A DNA stretch of 49,974 nt. Origin: Dehalococcoidia bacterium. Lineage in GTDB: Bacteria; Chloroflexota; Dehalococcoidia; GIF9; AB-539-J10. Both the position numbers and the translations under genes were made by a program. The notes beneath the pieces are model-generated. The model was not told where the DNA came from. It was given only the letters and a program-made list of their open reading frames with translations, and searched no databases. This document shows, one piece after another, positions 647 through 48,159 of this stretch (positions within the stretch are counted from its first letter, which is position 1; every line of letters starts with the position of its first letter). The DNA lies in contig JAUVZB010000010.1 in NCBI GenBank assembly GCA_030602785.1, positions 1 to 49,974 on the forward strand, written 5' to 3'.

Positions 647-1765
647 ATGCTGGCCAAGGTGATGAGCTGCGCTGTCGTCGGACTTGATGGCGCACTCGTC
701 GAGGTCGAGGTGGATATCTCCGCCGGCCTCCCCACATTCGCCATCGTTGGTCTCCCCGACAAGGCTGTCCAGGAGGCGCGCGAGCGCGTCCGGTCCGCCA
801 TACGCAACTCGGGCTTCAAGTTCCCCACCAGGCGCATCACGGTGAACTTGGCGCCGGCAGACCTCAAGAAAGAGGGCCCGTCATACGACCTTGCCATCGC
901 CGTCGGGCTGCTCGTGAGCTCGGGGCAGCTGCATGCCGACGTGCGCGACACGGTGTTCCTCGGCGAGCTGTCGCTGGACGGACGACTGCGCCACACCCAC
1001 GGAATGCTACCGATGGTATCAATCGTGCGCGGCGCAGGCATGGCGAAGGTGTGTGTTCCGCTCGACGACCGGCAGGAGGCCTCGCTGGTACGGGGTGTCG
1101 AGGTGCTCGCACCCGAGTCCCTCGCGCAGCTCGTCGGCTTCCTCAAGGGAGATGTTGCCCTGCCCGAGCCGGCTCCGCAGGAAATCGCTGCGCCGCCGCC
1201 GGCCGAGGACTCATTTGACTTGCGTTATGTCAAGGGGCAGGAGCACGCCAAACGCGCTCTCGAGGTGGCCGCGGCAGGTCGGCACAACGTGCTCATGGTC
1301 GGCCCTCCGGGAAGCGGCAAGACCATGCTCGCCCGGTGCCTGCCAACCGTCCTCCCTCCGCTCTCGTTCGATGAAGCCCTCGAGGTCACGAAGATATTCA
1401 GCGTGACAGGGTTGCTCTCCAGCGGGCAACCGCTCGTGCGCGAGAGGCCATTCCGCAGCCCACACTACACCATCTCCCACGCAGGCCTCGTCGGAGGAGG
1501 TCAGTCCCCCCGTCCCGGAGAGATCACTCTCAGCCACCGGGGCGTGCTCTTCCTGGATGAGTTCCCGGAGTTCGGCCACTCGACGCTCGAGTCCCTGCGG
1601 CAGCCGATGGAGGACCGCGTGGTGACCGTGAGCCGGGCACAGGGCAGCGTGACCTTTCCCGCCAGCTTCATGCTGGTCGGGGCCATGAACCCCTGTTCGT
1701 GTAGCCACTACATAGCGCGTTCTGGTCGAACGCAAAGGTCACCTCGGCGTCTATGTGCCTGCTAG
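647..1765 (+). pseudogene. comM: comM 5' part, cut by the integrated element
   Basis: This encodes the N-terminal two thirds of a YifB/ComM Mg-chelatase-like AAA+ protein, a helicase for branch migration during natural transformation. It shows the ComM N-terminal domain (starting [15 protein letters not shown]), a Walker A GPPGSGKT at about 1306-1329, LFLDEFPEF as Walker B, and the family motif reading MNPC at about 1684-1695. Host sequence ends at the TG at 1694-1695. The last 23 codons, to the stop at 1765, are element DNA read through by chance. The missing third lies at 35899-36369. Joining both parts gives about 505 residues, a normal ComM. As it stands the ORF makes a truncated protein lacking the C-terminal domain, so ComM should be inactive unless the element excises. 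Confidence 0.92.
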
Positions 1766-3341
1766 TACCCTCACCGACTGTCGTGACCTTCACCTGCGTA
1801 ACCAGGAGTTCCACAATCTGCCGCTTCACCTGGTAGGTCAGGCCACCATCGAGTATCGACCGTATCTCACCAAGACGGTCCTCGATGGTCGTGAACTGCA
1901 CCTTGCGCAACTCGGTGTTGGTGAGTTCCTGCTCGATGTGGGTGAGCCTCGCCTGTGCAGCTTTCGTCTCGGCTTTGACCGTCGCCAACTGGCCTTCAAG
2001 GTCATCAACCGTGATTATCCCCTTCCGGTACAGGCCCACTACACGAGCTCGCTCGTTGTCCTTGTCGGCGATAGTTCTCGTAAGCGTGAGCTTCTCAGCT
2101 TCCAGAACAGCATGTCGGCGGCCACTGTCGGCGTCCAGTTCGTCGAGCTTCAGCAATACCTCATTCGGCGTCAGCAGCAGGTGTTCAATCTCAGCCCAGA
2201 CAGCGTCTTCAATGGGCTCAGCTTTGACAATCTTCCCGGGACACTTGCCGCGCGTTGGCCCGCGATATGCTGTCTTGCCGTTGCAGCGGTAGTACCGGTC
2301 CTTGCCGTGATAGATGCACCCCGTGTACGTCAACCCGCAGTGGCCGCACTTGATAAGCCCGTGCAGCAGGTATTGCCTGTGGCAGTTCCTGGGCGAGTTG
2401 ATGAGGTTCTGATGAAGCGTGCGCTGAGCTTCATCCCACAGGTCCTCAGTGACAATCGCGGGTACTGAGCGCTCAATTGTCTGCCTGCTCTTGCGTGACC
2501 GTCGACCGTACACGTGGGTCCCCTTGTACACCGGATTGATGACCAGGTTCCTGATACGTGATGGTCGCCAGATGCCAGCGGTATTCGTCTTGCGCTTGCC
2601 ACGCTTGATTTGACGGTTGTCTTTCACATAGGCCGGTGGCACCCCCAGCGAGTTGAGCTCGTCGGCGATCTGCACGCAACTGTGTTTGTCCTCGGCCAAT
2701 CTCCGATAGATGAGCCTGACCACATCAGCTTCCGTCATGGCCACGCTCGGCAGCTGGTGCTCACTCACCAAGAGTCTCGCATCCCTCTTGGCTCCGAGGA
2801 CCTCGTATCCATATGGGACGATGCCCCCGAGCCACTGTCCAGCTCGTGCTCGCTCGTTCGTGCCCGCGATGGACCGCTCGATAATAGTGTCGTGCTCGAA
2901 GTCGGCAAAGCTGGCAAGGATATTCACCATGAGCCTGCCTGCAGAGTTCGACGTGTCGAAGGGCTCGGTGATGCTCGTAATGGTGATGCCTAGGCGCTCG
3001 AACTCATCGGCAAGATTCAGGATGATGCTGACGTGCCTGCCGAGACGGTCGAGCTTCCAGACTAGAAGCCTGGTGAACTGGCCCTTCTGGGCATCCTCAA
3101 GTAGCCTGTGGCCTTGCTCACGCTCAGCTATCTGGATGGTGCCCGAGATGCCGTCATCAAGATACCAGCCAGAGATGGCCACTTCTCTGCCGCCAGATTG
3201 CTGCATGCCGACGTAGTGCTCAGCTGCGCTGACCTGCATCTGGATAGATTGCTTCTCACGCTGCTCCTCGCTCGACACCCGGCAATAGACAGCAATCCTG
3301 TCGATAGCAGGCTCAGCCTTCACGTTTGATTTGGTTGCCAT
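1668..3341 (-). CDS. Large serine recombinase (integrase) of the element
   Basis: This site-specific recombinase would integrate and excise the element. The 557-residue product has an N-terminal resolvase domain with [13 protein letters not shown] (catalytic Ser in VSS) and [11 protein letters not shown], then a recombinase domain, then a zinc ribbon ([13 protein letters not shown], later YYRC and KCPG), then a leucine-rich coiled coil and a short C-terminus, the usual order for large serine integrases. The ATG at 3341 sits 10 nt behind GGAGG; an upstream GTG at 3350 is too close to it. The last 8 codons and the stop are host comM DNA. In the circular form the frame continues into the other end of the element (codons 35816-35899, minus strand), giving a 27-residue tail from IRVKVSSSK to AIDGLKA. 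The protein is therefore 557 residues when integrated and 576 when free. Confidence 0.93.
1680..1715. other. attL junction
   Basis: Host comM runs up to the TG at 1694-1695, after which the reading departs from the family sequence (TTCGTGTAG instead of the expected CCCCTGCGG). TTCGTGT at 1696-1702 is the right arm of the reconstructed attP palindrome. The octamer GCCACTAC at 1704-1711 also occurs at 35909-35916 in attR. The recombinase stop codon lies in host DNA left of this junction. Confidence 0.85.
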
Positions 3342-3439
3342 GGTAGTCACGCCTCCGTGTTATAAACCCCCGATGGGGTAGATGTCCAGCGCACTTCCGG
3401 GCTCCTGACATAGCTAATGACATAGTCGGGATTTTTCCC

Positions 3440-39535: not shown

Positions 39536-39694
39536 ACGATGAAATGTTCCTCAAAGCCTGTCAGCATGGCCGGAAGGCGAAAGCCGTGCTTGCCGACTGC
39601 TTTCGTTTTGACAACGACCAGCGGTCCCACCAGGCCCGGGCTGCGGCACACCGGCAACGGAAACCGGATACATCCAAACAAGGAGGCGTTCCAG

Positions 39695-41404
39695 TTGGCA
39701 ACACAGGCTGATAACAGCAATAAGGACGTCGTCTATGACCGCTCTCTCGGAGAGATGGTTAGAGACGCGACCCAGGCCTTCATACCGCTCCAGAATCACT
39801 ACACTCCTGAAGACATCAAGAGCGTGGACTACGAGCGCGATCTGGCCGACCCCGGGTGCTACCCCTTCACCAGGGGTATATACCCGCGAATGTATCGTGA
39901 CAGGCTATGGATAAAGTCATTCATAGTCAGTTACAGCACACTCGAAGAAACGAACGAGGCGTTCAAGGAATATCTGGCCAACGGCCAGACAGGACTCCGG
40001 CTGCTTTGTGATCTGCCAATCCAGACAGGCATCGACCCCGACCACCCTGCCTCATGGAACAGCATGCTTTGCGGCGGCGTCTCGTCGTATGCCCTGGAAA
40101 CCTATGAGAAAATGCTCGATGGATTGCCGCTTGAGAACGTCGATTACGAGCTGGCGCACATGGGAATGTCCAGCTTCCTGTGCTTCTACTCATACCTCGT
40201 GGCGATGATGGAGAAGAGAGGCCTGGACATATCTTCCCTGCGGGGGGCCGCCATCAACGACCCGTTCAGGTCCAAGATAGTCTATGGATGTCCGGATTTC
40301 CCCACCGAGATAGACCGCCGCATCAACCTCGACCTGATCGAGTTCAGCGTCAGGAATACGCCCAAGTGGAAGGCATACGCACCCAACGGAGTCGACCCCC
40401 AGCAGTCCGGGATGACGGCCATACAAGAAACCGCCCATGTCCTGGGCGTCGCTACTGCTGTATACACCGACATGATAAACGACCGCAAAATCAGTCTCGA
40501 TGAGGTAGGGCCGACGGTGTTCTCAATGGACGCTGAGTCCGACTTCTTCGAGACAATCTGCATGTTCAGAGCGGCCCGGCGGATGTGGGCGAAGATAGCG
40601 AAGGAGAAGCTGGGAGCTACCACTGCGCGCGCCCAGAGCCTGCGAATCGGTATCAGGACCTCGGGACTCTCTCTGCAGACCCAGAAACCCCTGAACAACG
40701 CAGCACGCGTTACTCTGCAGATACTGAGTTGCGTATTGGGCGGGGTCAACTCACTGGATGCGTCCAGTATCGATGAGGCTATCGGCCTGCCATCCAAAGA
40801 AGCGCGACTCTTCAACCTTGATACGCAGCACATCATCACCCATGAGGCAAATGTGCCGTTGGTGGCCGACCCGCTGGGAGGCTCCTACTACGTTGAGTGG
40901 TTGACCAACAAGATAGAAGAAGGAGCAAACGAAATACTCCAGACAATCGAAGAGAAGGGCGGCATGTGGGCATGTCTTGAGTCAGGCTTCTTGAGACAGC
41001 AGATCGATTCAAGCAGGATGAGAGTGCAGGCAGAGATTAATGAAGGGAAGCGACTGATTGTAGGCGTCAATGCTTTCCAGGGAGAAGAGGGGCCAATCAA
41101 CAAGGAAATCGAGAACTGCGCGTACAGAGTGCCCTCAAAGCAACTCAGACTACGTACGATAGCTGCCTTGAAGAAGTTGAAGGCAACGCGTGACAAGGAG
41201 AAAGTGAACGCCACGATAACGGAGCTCTACAACGCAACCAGGGAAGGCAGAAACGTTGTACGTGCTTCTATCGAGGCCTCAAAGGCGGGAGTCACCGTGG
41301 GAGAGACGGTGGGAGTAATCCGCATGGCCTACGGATACGGCTATGACCCTCTTAGTCAAATAGAGGCGCCCGCTTTCATAACCAATTTGCTGGGAGGTAA
41401 CTAA
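39695..41404 (+). CDS. Divergent B12-dependent acyl-CoA mutase, large subunit
   Basis: The substrate-binding (alpha) subunit of a methylmalonyl-CoA-mutase-family enzyme, 569 residues. The TTG at 39695 is 8 nt from AAGGAGG. Family landmarks remain (YPFTRGIYPRMYRDRLW, RAARRMWAKIA, PLGGSYYVEWLT), but key positions differ by my alignment. The Tyr of MCM (RQYAGF, position 89) is Ile77 within WIKSFIVSYS. The near-universal His of GYHMQEAG is Asp234 in NGVDPQQSG. The HTN-type loop reads LDASSIDEA. Ile at the first site is known from 2-hydroxyisobutyryl-CoA mutase, but the His replacement is not familiar to me. It may act on an unusual acyl-CoA, or may have lost activity. TAATG joins it to the small subunit. 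Confidence 0.88.
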   Translation: MATQADNSNKDVVYDRSLGEMVRDATQAFIPLQNHYTPEDIKSVDYERDLADPGCYPFTRGIYPRMYRDRLWIKSFIVSYSTLEETNEAFKEYLANGQTGLRLLCDLPIQTGIDPDHPASWNSMLCGGVSSYALETYEKMLDGLPLENVDYELAHMGMSSFLCFYSYLVAMMEKRGLDISSLRGAAINDPFRSKIVYGCPDFPTEIDRRINLDLIEFSVRNTPKWKAYAPNGVDPQQSGMTAIQETAHVLGVATAVYTDMINDRKISLDEVGPTVFSMDAESDFFETICMFRAARRMWAKIAKEKLGATTARAQSLRIGIRTSGLSLQTQKPLNNAARVTLQILSCVLGGVNSLDASSIDEAIGLPSKEARLFNLDTQHIITHEANVPLVADPLGGSYYVEWLTNKIEEGANEILQTIEEKGGMWACLESGFLRQQIDSSRMRVQAEINEGKRLIVGVNAFQGEEGPINKEIENCAYRVPSKQLRLRTIAALKKLKATRDKEKVNATITELYNATREGRNVVRASIEASKAGVTVGETVGVIRMAYGYGYDPLSQIEAPAFITNLLGGN

Positions 41405-41829
41405 TGGCAGTCCAACAGAAGACAATCCGGGTGGTCATCGGCAAAGTGGGGTGTGACATTCATGAGAGGGGTGCGCTCGTCCTTGCACGCGCCTTCAGAG
41501 ATGCCGGCATGGAAGTCATCTACCTGGGCAGGTTTCAGACTGCCGATTCAGTCGCCAAGACGGCTGTGGACGAGGATGCAAGCGTCATTGCCCTGAGCGA
41601 TCACACGGGAAGCATGCGCTACATAGCTAAGGACATCGTAGATGCCCTCAAGAAACACGAAGGTACTGATATCCCGGTTGTTGCAGGGGGCTTGATTCCC
41701 AGGAGGGACCTGCCTTATCTTGAGAAACTGGGGGTTACCGGCAACTTTGGCCCTGGTACAGGGCTGCCGATAGTGATCGACCATATCGAGAAGACGGTTG
41801 CGAAGAACAATAATAGCCCGGAGGCATAG
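41404..41829 (+). CDS. B12-binding subunit of the divergent mutase
   Basis: A 141-residue cobalamin-binding domain protein. The DxHxxG motif reads GCDIHERG, carrying the lower axial His. GG is kept in VVAGGLIP. The intermediate SxL motif, normally in SLSSLxGAH, is replaced by IALSDHTGS, so the nucleotide-tail contact is altered. Start and upstream stop overlap (TAATG), indicating fixed stoichiometry with the large subunit. With its partner it forms an alpha-beta enzyme comparable to ICM or HCM. Confidence 0.9.
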   Translation: MAVQQKTIRVVIGKVGCDIHERGALVLARAFRDAGMEVIYLGRFQTADSVAKTAVDEDASVIALSDHTGSMRYIAKDIVDALKKHEGTDIPVVAGGLIPRRDLPYLEKLGVTGNFGPGTGLPIVIDHIEKTVAKNNNSPEA

Positions 41830-41834
41830 TCGAC

Positions 41835-42383
41835 ATGGCAAGTGACAAGTTAGTACATCTTGAGAAGGGCTACGCTCAGGTCTACACGGGAAACTGTAAG
41901 GGCAAAACTACTGCTGCACTGGGATTGGCTTTTAGAGCCATGGGTAGCGGTCTGAAGACGTACATAGGGCAGTTCATGAAGGGACAGCAATACGGCGAGC
42001 TCGAATCAGCCAGGATGGTGAAGCCCTACATCACGATTGAGCAATATGGTCGAAAGGACCTGGTGCATGTGAAGTACCCACCGTTGCAGCAAGATGTCGA
42101 CATGGCGGCGGATGGTTTATCACGAGCGCGAAAAGCCATGCTGACAGGCGACTATGACATCGTCGTCTTTGACGAAATCCTCACGGCGCATGGTTTTCAC
42201 CTTGTTTCTCTCGACAGCATCCTGGACCTGGTGAGAACCAGGCCTGACAATGTGGAGATAGTGCTCACGGGGCGACATGCACCGCAGGAAGTCATCGATG
42301 CCGTCGACCTGGTGACAGAAATGGTAGAAATAAAGCACTACTACGCGAGAGGGATTATCGCTCGTAAAGGAATTGAGCGCTGA
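41835..42383 (+). CDS. Corrinoid adenosyltransferase, CobA/BtuR type
   Basis: It transfers the adenosyl group of ATP to cob(I)alamin to make the coenzyme needed by the mutases. The 182-residue protein has a P-loop YTGNCKGKTTAALGLAF (Cys where Gly/Asn is usual), AYIGQF-like TYIGQFMKGQQYGE, YDIVVFDEI as Walker B, and TGRHAPQEVIDAVDLVTEMV, which match CobA/CobO/BtuR. It lies 5 bp after the B12-binding subunit, so cofactor supply and enzyme are cotranscribed, suggesting the cluster depends on de novo adenosylation. Confidence 0.92.
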   Translation: MASDKLVHLEKGYAQVYTGNCKGKTTAALGLAFRAMGSGLKTYIGQFMKGQQYGELESARMVKPYITIEQYGRKDLVHVKYPPLQQDVDMAADGLSRARKAMLTGDYDIVVFDEILTAHGFHLVSLDSILDLVRTRPDNVEIVLTGRHAPQEVIDAVDLVTEMVEIKHYYARGIIARKGIER

Positions 42384-42515: not shown

Positions 42516-43517
42516 GTGGCGACAGGAAGACAACTTAGCACGGAAACAGCAAAGCTGATTGACGACATGCTGCAAGGGAACGCACGGGCCCTGGCAAAGC
42601 TGATTACTATCGTTGAGGAAGACGATGAAGAGGGTTACCAGGTTCTCCGGCATATCAGCCCGTCCGGCAAAGCTCATCGCGTAGGCGTGACCGGGCCTCC
42701 AGGCGCGGGCAAGAGCACATTAGTCAACAGGCTGACTTCATTCGCCAGGCAGGACGGGCTGCGGGTTGGCATCATCTGTGCCGATCCAAGCAGTCCCTTC
42801 AGCCGCGGAGCAGTGCTGGGCGACCGGGTCAGGATGAAGCAGCACTATACGGACGAGGGTGTTCATATCAGAAGCATGTCCACCCGCGGAAGCCTCGGCG
42901 GCCTTCCGTCTACAGTCCATGGTGTTATCAAGCTGATGGACGCTTCAGGAAAGGACCTTATCCTGGTAGAAACTGTGGGTGTCGGGCAAATGGAGCTCGA
43001 TGTCATGGAGAACGTTGACACGGTGGTAGTAACCCTTGTTCCGGAGGCCGGAGATGACGTACAGGCAATGAAGGCCGGCCTGATGGAGATAGCAGACATC
43101 TTCGCAGTCAATAAGGCCGACCGGTCGGGAGCCGGCAGCCTTGTGGTTGAGATTCAGAGCATGCTCAATCTCGTCGACCGGGACAATTGCTGGACGATAC
43201 CTGTGCTGGCCACCCAGGCAGAAAACAACATCGGAGTTGGAGAGCTGTACGAACAGATCTGCCATCACCGGAAGACATGTGTCGACAGCGGCATCCTTGC
43301 TGAACGGAGAGCCAGACAAAGGCGCAGCGAGTTCACTGCGGTACTGGAGAAGATGGTCATTCAGGAATTTACGAAAGCAATCTCGTCGGACCCCCGTCTT
43401 TCACGATATGTTTCCCGGATGAGCGAAGGAAAGCTCAGTCCGTACGAAGCAGCGGAGAAGATATTCAGCACTCTTTCACAGAGAGAGAGCCGGAATCAGG
43501 AATTGACGCAACCCTGA
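42516..43517 (+). CDS. meaB: MeaB/ArgK-type GTPase (mutase chaperone)
   Basis: A G3E-type GTPase that loads and protects adenosylcobalamin in acyl-CoA mutases. The 333-residue protein has Walker A GPPGAGKST, switch and Mg motifs (ICADPSSPFSRGAVLGDRVR, MSTRGSLGGLP), ILVETVGVGQMELDV, and NKAD for guanine recognition. The C-terminal helical arm serves dimerisation. The start is a GTG at 42516. It lies 130 bp after the adenosyltransferase and completes the divergent mutase cluster. A second meaB is at 44905. Confidence 0.93.
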   Translation: MATGRQLSTETAKLIDDMLQGNARALAKLITIVEEDDEEGYQVLRHISPSGKAHRVGVTGPPGAGKSTLVNRLTSFARQDGLRVGIICADPSSPFSRGAVLGDRVRMKQHYTDEGVHIRSMSTRGSLGGLPSTVHGVIKLMDASGKDLILVETVGVGQMELDVMENVDTVVVTLVPEAGDDVQAMKAGLMEIADIFAVNKADRSGAGSLVVEIQSMLNLVDRDNCWTIPVLATQAENNIGVGELYEQICHHRKTCVDSGILAERRARQRRSEFTAVLEKMVIQEFTKAISSDPRLSRYVSRMSEGKLSPYEAAEKIFSTLSQRESRNQELTQP

Positions 43518-43522
43518 TCCAG

Positions 43523-44077
43523 TCAGATAAGCCCCTTCTCTCTCAGAAGCCAGAGTATGCCGGGAACCCTCAAGTCAAGTTCTACACCTTCCGGCAGGTT
43601 CAGCATGAACTCGTCAGCCTTGCCCAGGGGCACCTTCACCACCTCGATCTCTTCCATGTCCTTGTGCACGGGCTTGCCCACGAATTCCACGTCAGGAGCA
43701 AAGAAGTGCATAGCCCGGGTGCCGGTCATGGCCGCCGATAGAGGCGACAACAACACAGGGATCAGTTCTGTCGCAGCATAGCCGGTCTCTTCAAGCAGCT
43801 CTCTTCTTGCCGCTTCCTCTTCGCTCTCACCCTCGAGGTCCGTGAGGCCTGCCGGAAACTGGATAACCCATGATTCAATCGGGGCGCGCCAGTTCTTCTC
43901 GAAGAGCAAATCACCGTCTTTTGTCAGAGCAATGATAACCACTGCCCCACTTCCATGAACGTTTGTCCTTTCGACGGCCTCCCACTTGCCGTCTCGGCCG
44001 TCCCCGCCGCTCACGTCCTTCTCGACGATGCGAAGGAACTTCCCCTCCGCAATGATTCTCTTTCCGGTTACCTTCAT
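43523..44077 (-). CDS. Nudix hydrolase (ADP-ribose pyrophosphatase type)
   Basis: A 184-residue Nudix protein. The box is complete: G at the start of GLTDLEGESEEEAA, then RRELLEETGY, matching Gx5Ex7REUxEExGU. The upstream WVIQFPAG and downstream LLSPLSAAMTGTRAMHFF are typical of NUDT5/ADP-ribose pyrophosphatases. It cleaves nucleoside diphosphate derivatives, most likely ADP-ribose. It converges with meaB, the stops being 6 bp apart. Confidence 0.9.
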   Translation of the reverse strand: MKVTGKRIIAEGKFLRIVEKDVSGGDGRDGKWEAVERTNVHGSGAVVIIALTKDGDLLFEKNWRAPIESWVIQFPAGLTDLEGESEEEAARRELLEETGYAATELIPVLLSPLSAAMTGTRAMHFFAPDVEFVGKPVHKDMEEIEVVKVPLGKADEFMLNLPEGVELDLRVPGILWLLREKGLI

Positions 44078-44904: not shown

Positions 44905-45852
44905 CTACGGCCTGATGAGTTGATTGACGAGTTCTGCAGCTGCTGCCCGGGGACTGATTCTTCTCTGCGCCAGGTCCTCCACGAGCTTGTCCTGAGAAGC
45001 CTTGTCAACGCCGGAACTGATGTAATCCCTGAGAGAGCCTTCAATGGCTTCAGCCAGTTCCAGCCGGGCTCTCTCACGGTCATGTTCCACCAGTCCACCG
45101 TGCGAAACGAGGAACTCCCTGTGCTTCAGTATCTCCCCCTCCAGTTCCTCAACGCCTCTGCCGTTCACGGCTTCGGTCAGAATCACGGGCGGCTGTCTCT
45201 CCTCAGGCAGGCTGTCCTTCATGTTCAGCATTGCCTGCAACTCCATCTTCACGTGGAGGGCGCCGCCCTGGTCTGCCTTGTTTATGACGAAGATGTCCGC
45301 CACCTCCAGGATGCCGGCCTTCATCATCTGAATCGCGTCTCCTGAGTCTGGAGTCAGCACAAAGACGGAGGTGCTGGCCAGATAGGTCACGTCTACCTCC
45401 TGTTGCCCGATACCCACTGTCTCCACAAGTACAATGTCTTTGCCCATGCCATCCATGACGCTGACAATACCTGCCGCCGCTCGGGCCAGCCCCCCCAGCC
45501 AACCCCGCGTGGCCACACTCCGCACAAACACCCCAGGGTCAGTGCAGTGCCGCTGCATACGTACCCGGTCCCCGAGTATCGCTCCGCCGGTCAACGGACT
45601 GGTGGGGTCAATGGCCACCACGCCAACCGTCATGTCACTCTGGCGGAAAGCGGCTATCAAGGCATCAACCAGGGTGCTCTTGCCGGCACCGGGAGCACCG
45701 GTAACCCCCACTATGTAGGCTCTGCCCGTATGAGGATAGAGCTTCTCCAGCGTTTCGAAGGCGCCGCGGTCACCGTTCTCAATACCTCTCATCAACCGCG
45801 CTGCCGACCGAACGTCACCCGCCACTATCCTGTTGACCTGCTCCACCGTCAC
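44905..45852 (-). CDS. meaB: MeaB/ArgK-type GTPase, second copy
   Basis: A 315-residue GTPase with Walker [56 protein letters not shown] and the guanine motif NKAD. The GTG at 45852 overlaps the stop of the upstream B12-binding subunit (GTGA), with GGAG at the right distance; a frame to 45903 starts inside that gene. It is the third gene of the near-canonical mutase operon and presumably serves that enzyme. Confidence 0.93.
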
Positions 45853-46277
45853 CGCATGGACTCCACACCCTTCCCTCCGGGAACAACGTTCTCTTCTGTC
45901 CACTTCACTATTGCATCAAGAGGTGTCCCGGGCAAGAACACCTGCTTGATTCCAGCTTCTTTGAGCTTCGGGATATCCTCTTCGGGGATAATGCCACCGC
46001 CAACCACAGTAATGTCACCGGCGCCTTTCTCCCTCAGTTGCCTGGCAACCTCGTTGAACAGAAACAGGTGAGCACCGGAAAGACAGCTCAGACTAACCAT
46101 GTCAACATCTTCCTGGATGGCAGTACTGACTATCTGCTCCGGCGTTTGATGAACACCGGTATAGATCACTTCGTAGCCGGCATCCCGGAAGGCCCGGGCA
46201 ATCACCCTCACCCCACGATCATGACCGTCCAACCCTGGCTTGGCCACCAATACTCTCAACTTTGTCTGTGGACTCAT
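45849..46277 (-). CDS. Methylmalonyl-CoA mutase-type B12-binding subunit
   Basis: A 142-residue cobalamin-binding protein with all canonical motifs: [10 protein letters not shown] (axial His), SLSCLSGAH (SxL), and VVGGGIIP (GG). The ATG at 46277 is 9 nt behind GGAGG. It lies 48 bp after the large subunit and overlaps meaB by 4 bp. With 46326-48002 it forms the mutase heterodimer. Confidence 0.93.
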
Positions 46278-46325
46278 TCTGCACCGCCTCCAGTTCAAGA
46301 AGCTCGTCTTTCCGTCGCCAGTCGC

Positions 46326-48002
46326 CTAGAAAAAGCCGGGGTCCTGGTACTCTCCGAAGACTTCCCGGTAGATATCACAGATTTCCTGCTCGGTAGCATA
46401 AGCCTTGACGGCCTCAATCACGTGGGGCATCACGTTCTCTCCGCTCTTGCACGCCCTACGTATATCGCCAAGTGTTTGGACCACCTTCCGATTATCCCTG
46501 GTCCGCTTCACCTCATTCAGGCGCTTGACCTGTTCTTCTTCCAGCTTTTCATCTATCTTGAGGGTCTCAATCTGGGCCTTTTCTTCAGACACATACTTGT
46601 TCACCCCCACCAGTGTCTTCGCCCCTGAGTCCAGTTGCCGTTGATAACGGTAGGCGGCATCGGCAAGCTCGATCTGGGGAAAGCCCTGCTCAATCGCGGC
46701 CAGCATGCCGCCCATCTCGTCTATCTTGTTGATGTACTCCCAGGCCTTCTCTTCCATCTCGTTGGTCAGCGCCTCGACGAAATAGGAGCCGGCCAGCGGG
46801 TCGATAGTGTTAATCACCCCGGTCTCCTCAGCAATAATCTGCTGGGTGCGGAGAGCCACCGTCACCGCCGCGTCGGAGGGCAGGGCCAGAGTCTCATCAT
46901 AGGAGTTGGTGTGGAGCGACTGCGTGCCGCCCAGCGCCGCTGCCAGCGCCTGGGTAGACACACGGACGATGTTATTCAGCGGTTGCTGAGCAGTGAGAGA
47001 GCAACCCGCCGTCTGGGTGTGGAAGCGCATCCACCAGGAGCGGGGGTTCTTCGCCTTGAAGCGCTCCCTCATGATCCCGGCCCATATCCGCCTGGCCGCC
47101 CGCAGCTTGGCTATCTCCTCGAAGAAGTCGATGTGCGAATCAAAGAAGAAAGAGAGCCGGGGGGCAAAGGTATCAACGTCCAGCTTGGTATGGTCGAGCA
47201 CATCCTGCACGTAAGCAATGCCGTCAGCCAGCGTGAAGGCCAGTTCCTGGACCGCCGTCGCGCCTGCCTCGCGCATGTGGTAACCACTGATGCTTATGGT
47301 ATTCCACCGGGGGACATGCAGTGAGCCAAACTCAATGATGTCACGGACAAGTCTGACCGATGGCTCCGGCGGACACATGAAGGTCTTCTGTGCGATGAAC
47401 TCCTTGAGCATGTCGTTCTGGAGGGTGCCGCCCAGCCTGTCCCAGCTCACGCCCTGCTTTTCGGCCACCGCCAGGTTCATCGCCCAGAGAATGGTGGCCG
47501 GGGGATTGATGGTATGGGACACGGTCACGTCACTAAGGGGGATTCCGTCCATAAGGACTTCGAAGTCGGCCAGGGAGTCAATAGCCACACCGCACTTGCC
47601 AATCTCGGCACGGGAGCGGGGTGAATCGCTGTCGTACCCCATCAGTGAGGGATAGTCGTAGGCAATGCTCAGGCCGGTCTCGCCATGCTTCAACAGGTGA
47701 TGATACCGGCGGTTAGTGTCCTCGGCACTGGCAAAGCCGGAGAACATCCGAAAGGTCCACACCCGGCCCCGGTACATATCCGGCTGGCAGCCGCGGGTGA
47801 AGGGATAACAGCCGGGATAGCCAATCTTCTCCTCGTAGTCCAGGTCTTTGACGTCATCAGGGGTGTATATGGGCTTGATTTCAAGGTCGGAAACAGTGGA
47901 GAAACGCTTCGTTTCCTGAGCGCCGGCGACGGCCCCCTTGACCTTGTCCCACCACTCCACCATCCCATCGTGCACCTGCTTCAGCGTCTTCTCATGAAAC
48001 AT
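46326..48002 (-). CDS. Methylmalonyl-CoA mutase-type large subunit
   Basis: A 558-residue alpha subunit of a B12-dependent acyl-CoA mutase, probably interconverting methylmalonyl-CoA and succinyl-CoA. Landmarks: YPFTRGCQPDMYRGRVWTFR, LSIAYDYPSLMGYDSDSP, SVRLVRDIIEF (Arg equivalent to MCM Arg207), ISISGYHMREAG (catalytic His present), QTAGCSLTAQQPLNN, and LHTNSYDETLALPSD. The MCM Tyr89 position is Phe (RMFSGF), which is the isobutyryl-CoA mutase residue, while Arg207 is the methylmalonyl residue, so specificity is mixed by these marks. The ATG at 48002 follows GGGAGGGA. It is the first gene of an operon with the small subunit and meaB. Confidence 0.92.
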   Translation of the reverse strand: MFHEKTLKQVHDGMVEWWDKVKGAVAGAQETKRFSTVSDLEIKPIYTPDDVKDLDYEEKIGYPGCYPFTRGCQPDMYRGRVWTFRMFSGFASAEDTNRRYHHLLKHGETGLSIAYDYPSLMGYDSDSPRSRAEIGKCGVAIDSLADFEVLMDGIPLSDVTVSHTINPPATILWAMNLAVAEKQGVSWDRLGGTLQNDMLKEFIAQKTFMCPPEPSVRLVRDIIEFGSLHVPRWNTISISGYHMREAGATAVQELAFTLADGIAYVQDVLDHTKLDVDTFAPRLSFFFDSHIDFFEEIAKLRAARRIWAGIMRERFKAKNPRSWWMRFHTQTAGCSLTAQQPLNNIVRVSTQALAAALGGTQSLHTNSYDETLALPSDAAVTVALRTQQIIAEETGVINTIDPLAGSYFVEALTNEMEEKAWEYINKIDEMGGMLAAIEQGFPQIELADAAYRYQRQLDSGAKTLVGVNKYVSEEKAQIETLKIDEKLEEEQVKRLNEVKRTRDNRKVVQTLGDIRRACKSGENVMPHVIEAVKAYATEQEICDIYREVFGEYQDPGFF

Positions 48003-48159
48003 ACTATCCCTCCCTGTCACAACTCTGGAGCTACACAAACAATCTGTGGCCCGATGAAGTGATGGTGGCGCCGTGACAGTGCCGTTTCCGGCAGAGCTGA
48101 TTGTACCCGAAGTGAGCCATGACCCGTCAACCCCTCATGGTGGCCGTAGCCGGCACAAC

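Follow-up and report, generated by a model that had tools for sequence, protein, structure and literature searches.

The mutase genes at positions 39695-41829 of the window, i.e. the whole 49,974-nucleotide stretch of Dehalococcoidia DNA analyzed here, raise the question of whether an acyl-CoA mutase with an aspartate in place of its active-site histidine is likely to be a functional enzyme and, if so, what kind of substrate it might act on. To our knowledge few acyl-CoA mutase reactions have been recognized. Each new one has explained the degradation of some branched or quaternary carbon compound.

The large catalytic subunit of this divergent mutase (P0001, 569 aa; 39695..41404, forward strand) reads without an internal stop from a TTG codon at 39695 to 41404, and an AAGGAGG ribosome-binding site lies 8 nt upstream of this start (39680..39686, forward strand). 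The protein is recovered by the MM_CoA_mutase barrel profile PF01642 with 464 bits (curated cut-off 22.1) and by TIGR00641 with 396 bits (cut-off 303.8), and its AF2 model agrees with this assignment. The start of the small B12-binding subunit (P0002, 141 aa; 41404..41829, forward strand; PF02310 and, over its cut-off, TIGR00640) overlaps the stop of the large-subunit gene by 1 base. It retains the DxHxxG (DIHERG) and GG (AGG) motifs, with SDH at the SxL position. Downstream on the same strand lie genes for a CobA/CobO/BtuR-type cob(I)alamin adenosyltransferase (41835..42383; PF02572, 193 bits) and for MeaB, the GTPase chaperone of the mutase (42516..43517; TIGR00750, 311 bits, over the cut-off), followed by a Nudix hydrolase gene convergent to the cassette (43523..44077, reverse strand; PF00293).

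Adjoining the cassette on the opposite strand (44905-48038) is an ICM-type set, used here for comparison only and not part of the cassette, which comprises a second MeaB (44905..45903, family profile), a small subunit with a canonical SCL (P0004; 45849..46298, family profiles) and a large subunit with the Phe/Gln/His signature (P0003; 46326..48038). The latter is the only PF01642 gene in this genome besides P0001, and the adjacency of the two sets is absent from the flanks in four congeners. Elsewhere in the window, positions 1691-35901 constitute a probable integrated element of ~34 kb inside comM/YifB, which is split into an N-part (647-1765, ending MNPCSC) and a C-part starting at about 35900 (CPCGHYGDP); at its left junction the minus strand encodes a large serine recombinase (1668-3350). 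The mutase cassette is not part of this probable element.

Alignment of P0001 with human MCM (2xij) and HCM (4r3u), using both HMMER and MAFFT, places Ile77 (codon 39923..39925, forward strand) in the column of MCM Tyr89, with no gap nearby, and Asp234 (GAC, 40394..40396, forward strand; NGVDPQQSG), in gap-free surroundings, in that of the GYHM histidine, MCM His244. The HTN loop is changed to DAS (355-357), and the DE pair behind it is conserved (Asp360, Glu361). These results uphold four substitutions proposed in the initial annotation of this DNA, namely the replacements of Tyr89 and of the GYHM histidine, the latter being Asp in the congener orthologues as well, the altered HTN loop, and the absence of the Leu of SxL from the small subunit. 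That list was correct throughout and undercounted the changes, as eight further sites are substituted: Arg87 to Ser75, Ser114 to Arg102, Ser164 to Glu152, Thr195 to Ala185, Gln197 to Ile187, Arg207 to Tyr197, Asn236 to Lys226 and the Gln of HCQTSG to Arg321. For what individual MCM, ICM and HCM residues do in catalysis we follow general background on the family, and we take the CoA-channel residues of MCM to be Thr85, Arg87, Ser114, Asn236, Arg283, Ser285 and Gln330. Since these channel residues are likewise substituted, binding of a CoA thioester is uncertain. No histidine was found at the aligned catalytic site of P0001. His155, at the end of a neighboring strand, was considered as a possible relocated catalytic histidine and set aside: it occurs in most members with GVD at the histidine site, but is Asp in one relative (L174) and Asn or Cys in members with GYD or GYN.

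The AF2 model of P0001 (pLDDT 88.5) has HCM 4r3u as its best Foldseek match (E 6.7e-38), with a Z-score of 50.1 and an rmsd of 1.6 A over 518 residues. The corresponding Z-scores are ~48 for the MCM alpha subunit, ~37 for MCM beta and 23 for glutamate mutase, and at the sequence level MCM alpha is matched with 210 bits versus 67.6 bits for beta. A search of the PDB for a characterized close relative recovered none, the best match being again 4r3u at 33% identity.

Orthologs are present in five of six further species sampled from the genus (87-92% identity), and all five have Asp at site 234. In four of them, deposited as Dehalococcoidia MAGs (L033-L036), the order mutL-mutS-adenosyltransferase-MeaB (mutL and mutS being the large and small mutase subunit genes) is conserved together with the convergent Nudix gene; the outer flanks vary, and the adenosyltransferase, MeaB and Nudix genes are the only constant neighbors of the mutase within the genus. 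Pairwise comparisons among the window and these four congeners give dN/dS values of 0.03-0.08, i.e. strong purifying selection, with third codon positions just 48-65% identical, and the codon for Asp234 occurs as both GAC and GAT among congeners. The low dN/dS and the two alternative codons thus indicate that the aspartate is an old, maintained state, and neither a sequencing error nor a sign of decay. The initial view of intact genes packaged with an adenosyltransferase and MeaB is upheld.

Beyond the genus, relatives with 50-69% identity were recovered from Sporomusa sp. KB1 (L037; Bacillota), another Firmicutes MAG (L041), deltaproteobacterial and Desulfobacteraceae MAGs of the Desulfobacterota (L038-L040, L043, L044), further genomes of the same classes (L143, L173-L175), one further MAG of the Dehalococcoidia (L009/L042) and one of the Rokubacteria (L055). 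A profile of this clade scores its members at 823-1069 bits and other mutases of the compared genomes at no more than 509 bits. Lys74, Ile77, Arg102, Asp106, Glu152, Asp189, Pro230, Gly232, Arg321, Asp355, Asp360 and Glu361 are identical in all 23 members, and 22 of them have Asp at site 234, the exception being L042 with Asn. In the CoA-entry stretch Tyr63 (Phe in one member), Met66 and mostly Arg70 are retained. Occurrence is sparse: five genome surveys yielded 1/28, 4/85, 1/341, 2/63 and 2/291, and only 4 of 393 genomes of the window's own class contain a member when clade-level scores alone are counted. No clade member was found in a searched plasmid collection. One genome (G925, with L173 and L174) has 27 mutase candidates in 6.8 Mb, two of them belonging to the clade, and in the Rokubacteria MAG a clade member is adjoined by a further divergent mutase (L055:9697-11778) with TYYISDGG at the histidine site.

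In trees of 77 and 49 rows that included MCM (human), HCM and IcmF/ICM-type sequences as named classes, the clade has 100/100 support and a long stem, and a 100/100 branch parts it from human MCM, HCM, the ICM-type and other His-bearing rows. Constraining the clade together with HCM is 64.5 log units worse (p-AU 3e-5), and this test and the residues rule out HCM membership of P0001. The cassette mutase is therefore, on phylogenetic grounds, a subfamily apart from MCM, HCM and IcmF/ICM-type, the named classes tested; it might yet nest inside the ECM, RcmAB (Kyrpidia), IaaGH or alkylsuccinyl-CoA mutases, whose named sequences lay outside these trees. Retention of the histidine in the named classes, as initially stated, holds for the three tested here. 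The notion of the aspartate as a unique oddity was overstated: 36 of 120 sampled mutases are devoid of the histidine (84 His, 26 Asp, 7 Asn, 3 other), a fraction that is no census since the set is a convenience sample gathered via this clade. Among these, a second, larger Asp group, with LYD/MYD at this site (Val89, Gly207), forms a separate clade, and Asn types also occur. Loss of the histidine is thus a broader phenomenon in the mutase family. Likewise, too much had been read into the loss of SxL as a marker of function. The small subunits of sisters with the same Asp (L037, L038, L041) keep SDL, so the change does not accompany the aspartate; outside the clade 37 of 56 hits have SxL in the B12 domain, and SxH, SxI and others also occur there. 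Two further loci (L053:8615-15619 and L050:8541-14508) encode three different mutase large subunits in tandem, the first with Asp (MYD), and in L053 HMG-CoA-synthase-like genes and SCPx-type thiolase genes come next.

The gene neighborhoods of clade members vary by lineage. Neighbors were named from translations read by eye, with those of the window and some of those of Sporomusa KB1 and G151 backed by family or structure searches. In Sporomusa KB1 the run comprises HBDH, a CoA-transferase, an acyl-CoA dehydrogenase, EtfBA, mutL, mutS, MeaB and a thiolase, beyond which lie a LysR gene, an enoyl-CoA hydratase and an MFS transporter of the organic-anion type. The same-strand run of G151 contains mutL, mutS, HMG-CoA-synthase-like/DUF35 genes, a thiolase, an ABC transporter with an acyl-CoA synthetase and two MaoC proteins, and continues with a 4-hydroxybutyryl-CoA dehydratase, an enoyl-CoA hydratase, HBDH and another enoyl-CoA hydratase; the dehydratase is a genuine one (phmmer 6e-162 to 1u8v). 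G201 has an ABC transporter, an acyl-CoA synthetase, mutS, mutL, DUF35/thiolase pairs, a CaiB-type transferase and ACADs, and G1034 has GlcD/GlcF-like genes, mutL, mutS, MeaB, a FixC-like flavoprotein and EtfAB; in L035 the upstream genes include two ACADs and a subunit of an acyl-CoA carboxylase. Where informative, these gene clusters point to a catabolic acyl-CoA mutase that would feed β-oxidation. The 4-hydroxybutyryl-CoA dehydratase was also considered as a marker of function and proved uninformative, its homologs being abundant in a congener that is without the mutase (G006) and distant (31-35%) in Sporomusa and Rokubacteria. Given their presence in the mutase-less congener, they do not identify the substrate. 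In the literature covered, a search on the physiology of Sporomusa KB1, on a His-less mutase and on a 3-hydroxyisobutyryl-CoA mutase found nothing, and it yielded no biochemical data for the clade.

Taken together, the cassette probably encodes a two-subunit AdoCbl-dependent acyl-CoA mutase that belongs to a subfamily not yet described, is accompanied by dedicated enzymes for cofactor loading and channels a branched acyl-CoA into β-oxidation. Homolysis of the Co-C bond would yield an adenosyl radical that abstracts a hydrogen from the branched acyl-CoA, and a 1,2-shift of the CoA-carbonyl group would then produce an acyl-CoA, either linear or with another branching pattern, that could enter β-oxidation. 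Asp234, or Asn in one sister, might make the polar contact normally provided by His244, and Arg102, Glu152, Arg321, Lys74 and Tyr197 may form a pocket for another acyl group, presumably neither methylmalonyl (no Arg207) nor isobutyryl (no Phe/Gln). As to the substrate, our first guess, held with low confidence, is a short-chain acyl-CoA that is both branched and hydroxylated; it is prompted by the Ile that site 89 shares with HCM and by the dehydratase and GlcD/GlcF neighbors, and remains a guess because the dehydratase homologs do not track the mutase. Against a site of the hydroxyl type is the Leu in P0001 at the position of HCM Asp117, the residue that we take to bind the substrate hydroxyl. 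Thus, of the initial proposal of a mutase for an undescribed substrate, the separation from MCM, HCM and IcmF/ICM-type stands, and the undescribed substrate is not established. The more far-reaching form of this reading, to which we would give slightly under an even chance, is that the clade represents a new enzyme class. Its members would be B12 carbon-skeleton mutases that dispense with the conserved histidine, are sparsely distributed among distant anaerobes and act on a substrate for which no anaerobic route is known, probably a branched acyl compound made polar by a hydroxyl or another group. If so, the clade would be one part of a wider His-less half of this family.

Several other explanations have to be weighed against this. 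The sequence might be new and the chemistry old, with a differently built site catalyzing a known reaction of the isobutyryl-, 2-hydroxyisobutyryl-, ethylmalonyl- or aryl-/alkylsuccinyl-CoA type. There is a precedent in HcmAB and RcmAB, two distantly related 2-hydroxyisobutyryl-CoA mutases, the latter with a counterpart used by D. biacutus, so that one reaction may be found in distant family members (PMC7176365). HCM also shares the Ile at the site of Ile77 and is the closest solved structure, and the Sporomusa run would suit turnover of isobutyrate or 2-hydroxyisobutyrate. We nevertheless regard a known reaction as rather unlikely in view of the missing equivalents of Asp117, His244 and the Arg207 or Gln198 signature, the rejected grouping with HCM and the ICM-type set already present in the window's genome. 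A specific version of the preferred reading is a 3-hydroxyisobutyryl-CoA/4-hydroxybutyryl-CoA mutase, in which Asp234 would hold the hydroxyl and the product would pass via 4-hydroxybutyryl-CoA dehydratase to crotonyl-CoA and acetyl-CoA. It would fit the single same-strand run of G151, where the mutase accompanies a true 4-hydroxybutyryl-CoA dehydratase, enoyl-CoA hydratase, HBDH and thiolase. However, this run is found in one genome, the Sporomusa run contains an acyl-CoA dehydrogenase and ETF in its place, and the dehydratase homologs do not follow the mutase, making this version improbable.

The charged core, i.e. the invariant Lys74, Arg102, Glu152 and Arg321 and the near-invariant Asp234 in or near the barrel strands, could alternatively bind a polar acid or an amino acid in free form, as glutamate mutase does, prior to CoA activation, a scheme with which the loss of several CoA-channel residues and the CoA-activating enzymes in the same clusters are consistent. 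Nonetheless, Tyr63, Met66 and mostly Arg70 of the CoA-entry stretch are kept and the fold is nearest to acyl-CoA mutases (Z 50 versus 23 for glutamate mutase), and a non-CoA substrate seems quite improbable. It is highly improbable that the many substitutions at the catalytic site mark a dead or regulatory paralog comparable to the MCM beta subunit: the protein comes with a dedicated B12 subunit that carries DxHxxG and GG and with an adenosyltransferase and MeaB of its own, its dN/dS is low, there is no linked active mutase alongside it in four congeners, and its fold is alpha-like rather than beta-like. The reading as MCM beta or a dead subunit was rejected on grounds of fold and genetics.

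The acyl-CoA mutase family as such is known; what appears from these comparisons to be new is a subfamily with a rebuilt site, spread across several unrelated anaerobes and set apart from the tested classes MCM, HCM and ICM-type. A clade without the catalytic histidine provides a test of the necessity of this residue for the radical 1,2-shift and would offer a new scaffold for engineering. As the copy in Sporomusa sp. KB1 lies within a near-complete β-oxidation gene set, the substrate is directly testable.

Comparison with known systems places the cassette mutase closest to HcmAB (4r3u), with which it shares the two-subunit organization, the best fold match, 33% identity, the Ile at the Tyr89 site (Ile90 in HCM, here Ile77) and a MeaB-type chaperone in the operon. 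It differs from HcmAB in having Leu104 for Asp117, Asp for the histidine, Ile for Gln197 and Tyr for the Gln that HCM has at the Arg207 site, and a joint clade is rejected. With MCM (1req/4req alpha, 2xij) it has in common the fold, the B12 domain with DxHxxG and GG and the DE pair, whereas Tyr89, Gln197, Arg207 and His244 are all substituted (Ile, Ile, Tyr, Asp) and the clades are separate. The ICM-type/IcmF mutases (5cjt) share the fold and a MeaB-like GTPase partner, but their Phe80/Gln198/His signature is absent here (Ile, Tyr, Asp) and they lie across the 100/100 branch. Other, uncharacterized mutases that lack the histidine and have LYD/MYD (Asp) or GYN (Asn), for example L053, L075 and L011, are alike in the Asp or Asn at this site, and several belong to catabolic clusters, a number of which include HMGS/DUF35 and thiolase genes; they nevertheless form separate clades, those with LYD/MYD having Val89 and Gly207 and keeping Gln197. 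Among described systems are also the hexylmalonyl-CoA mutases (PMC5719088) and the benzylmalonyl-CoA mutase IaaGH (PMC8360864). To the iaa operon, with its CoA ligase IaaB, CoA transferase IaaL and dehydrogenase IaaF, the clade loci are alike only in their ACAD, CoA-activation and ETF genes.
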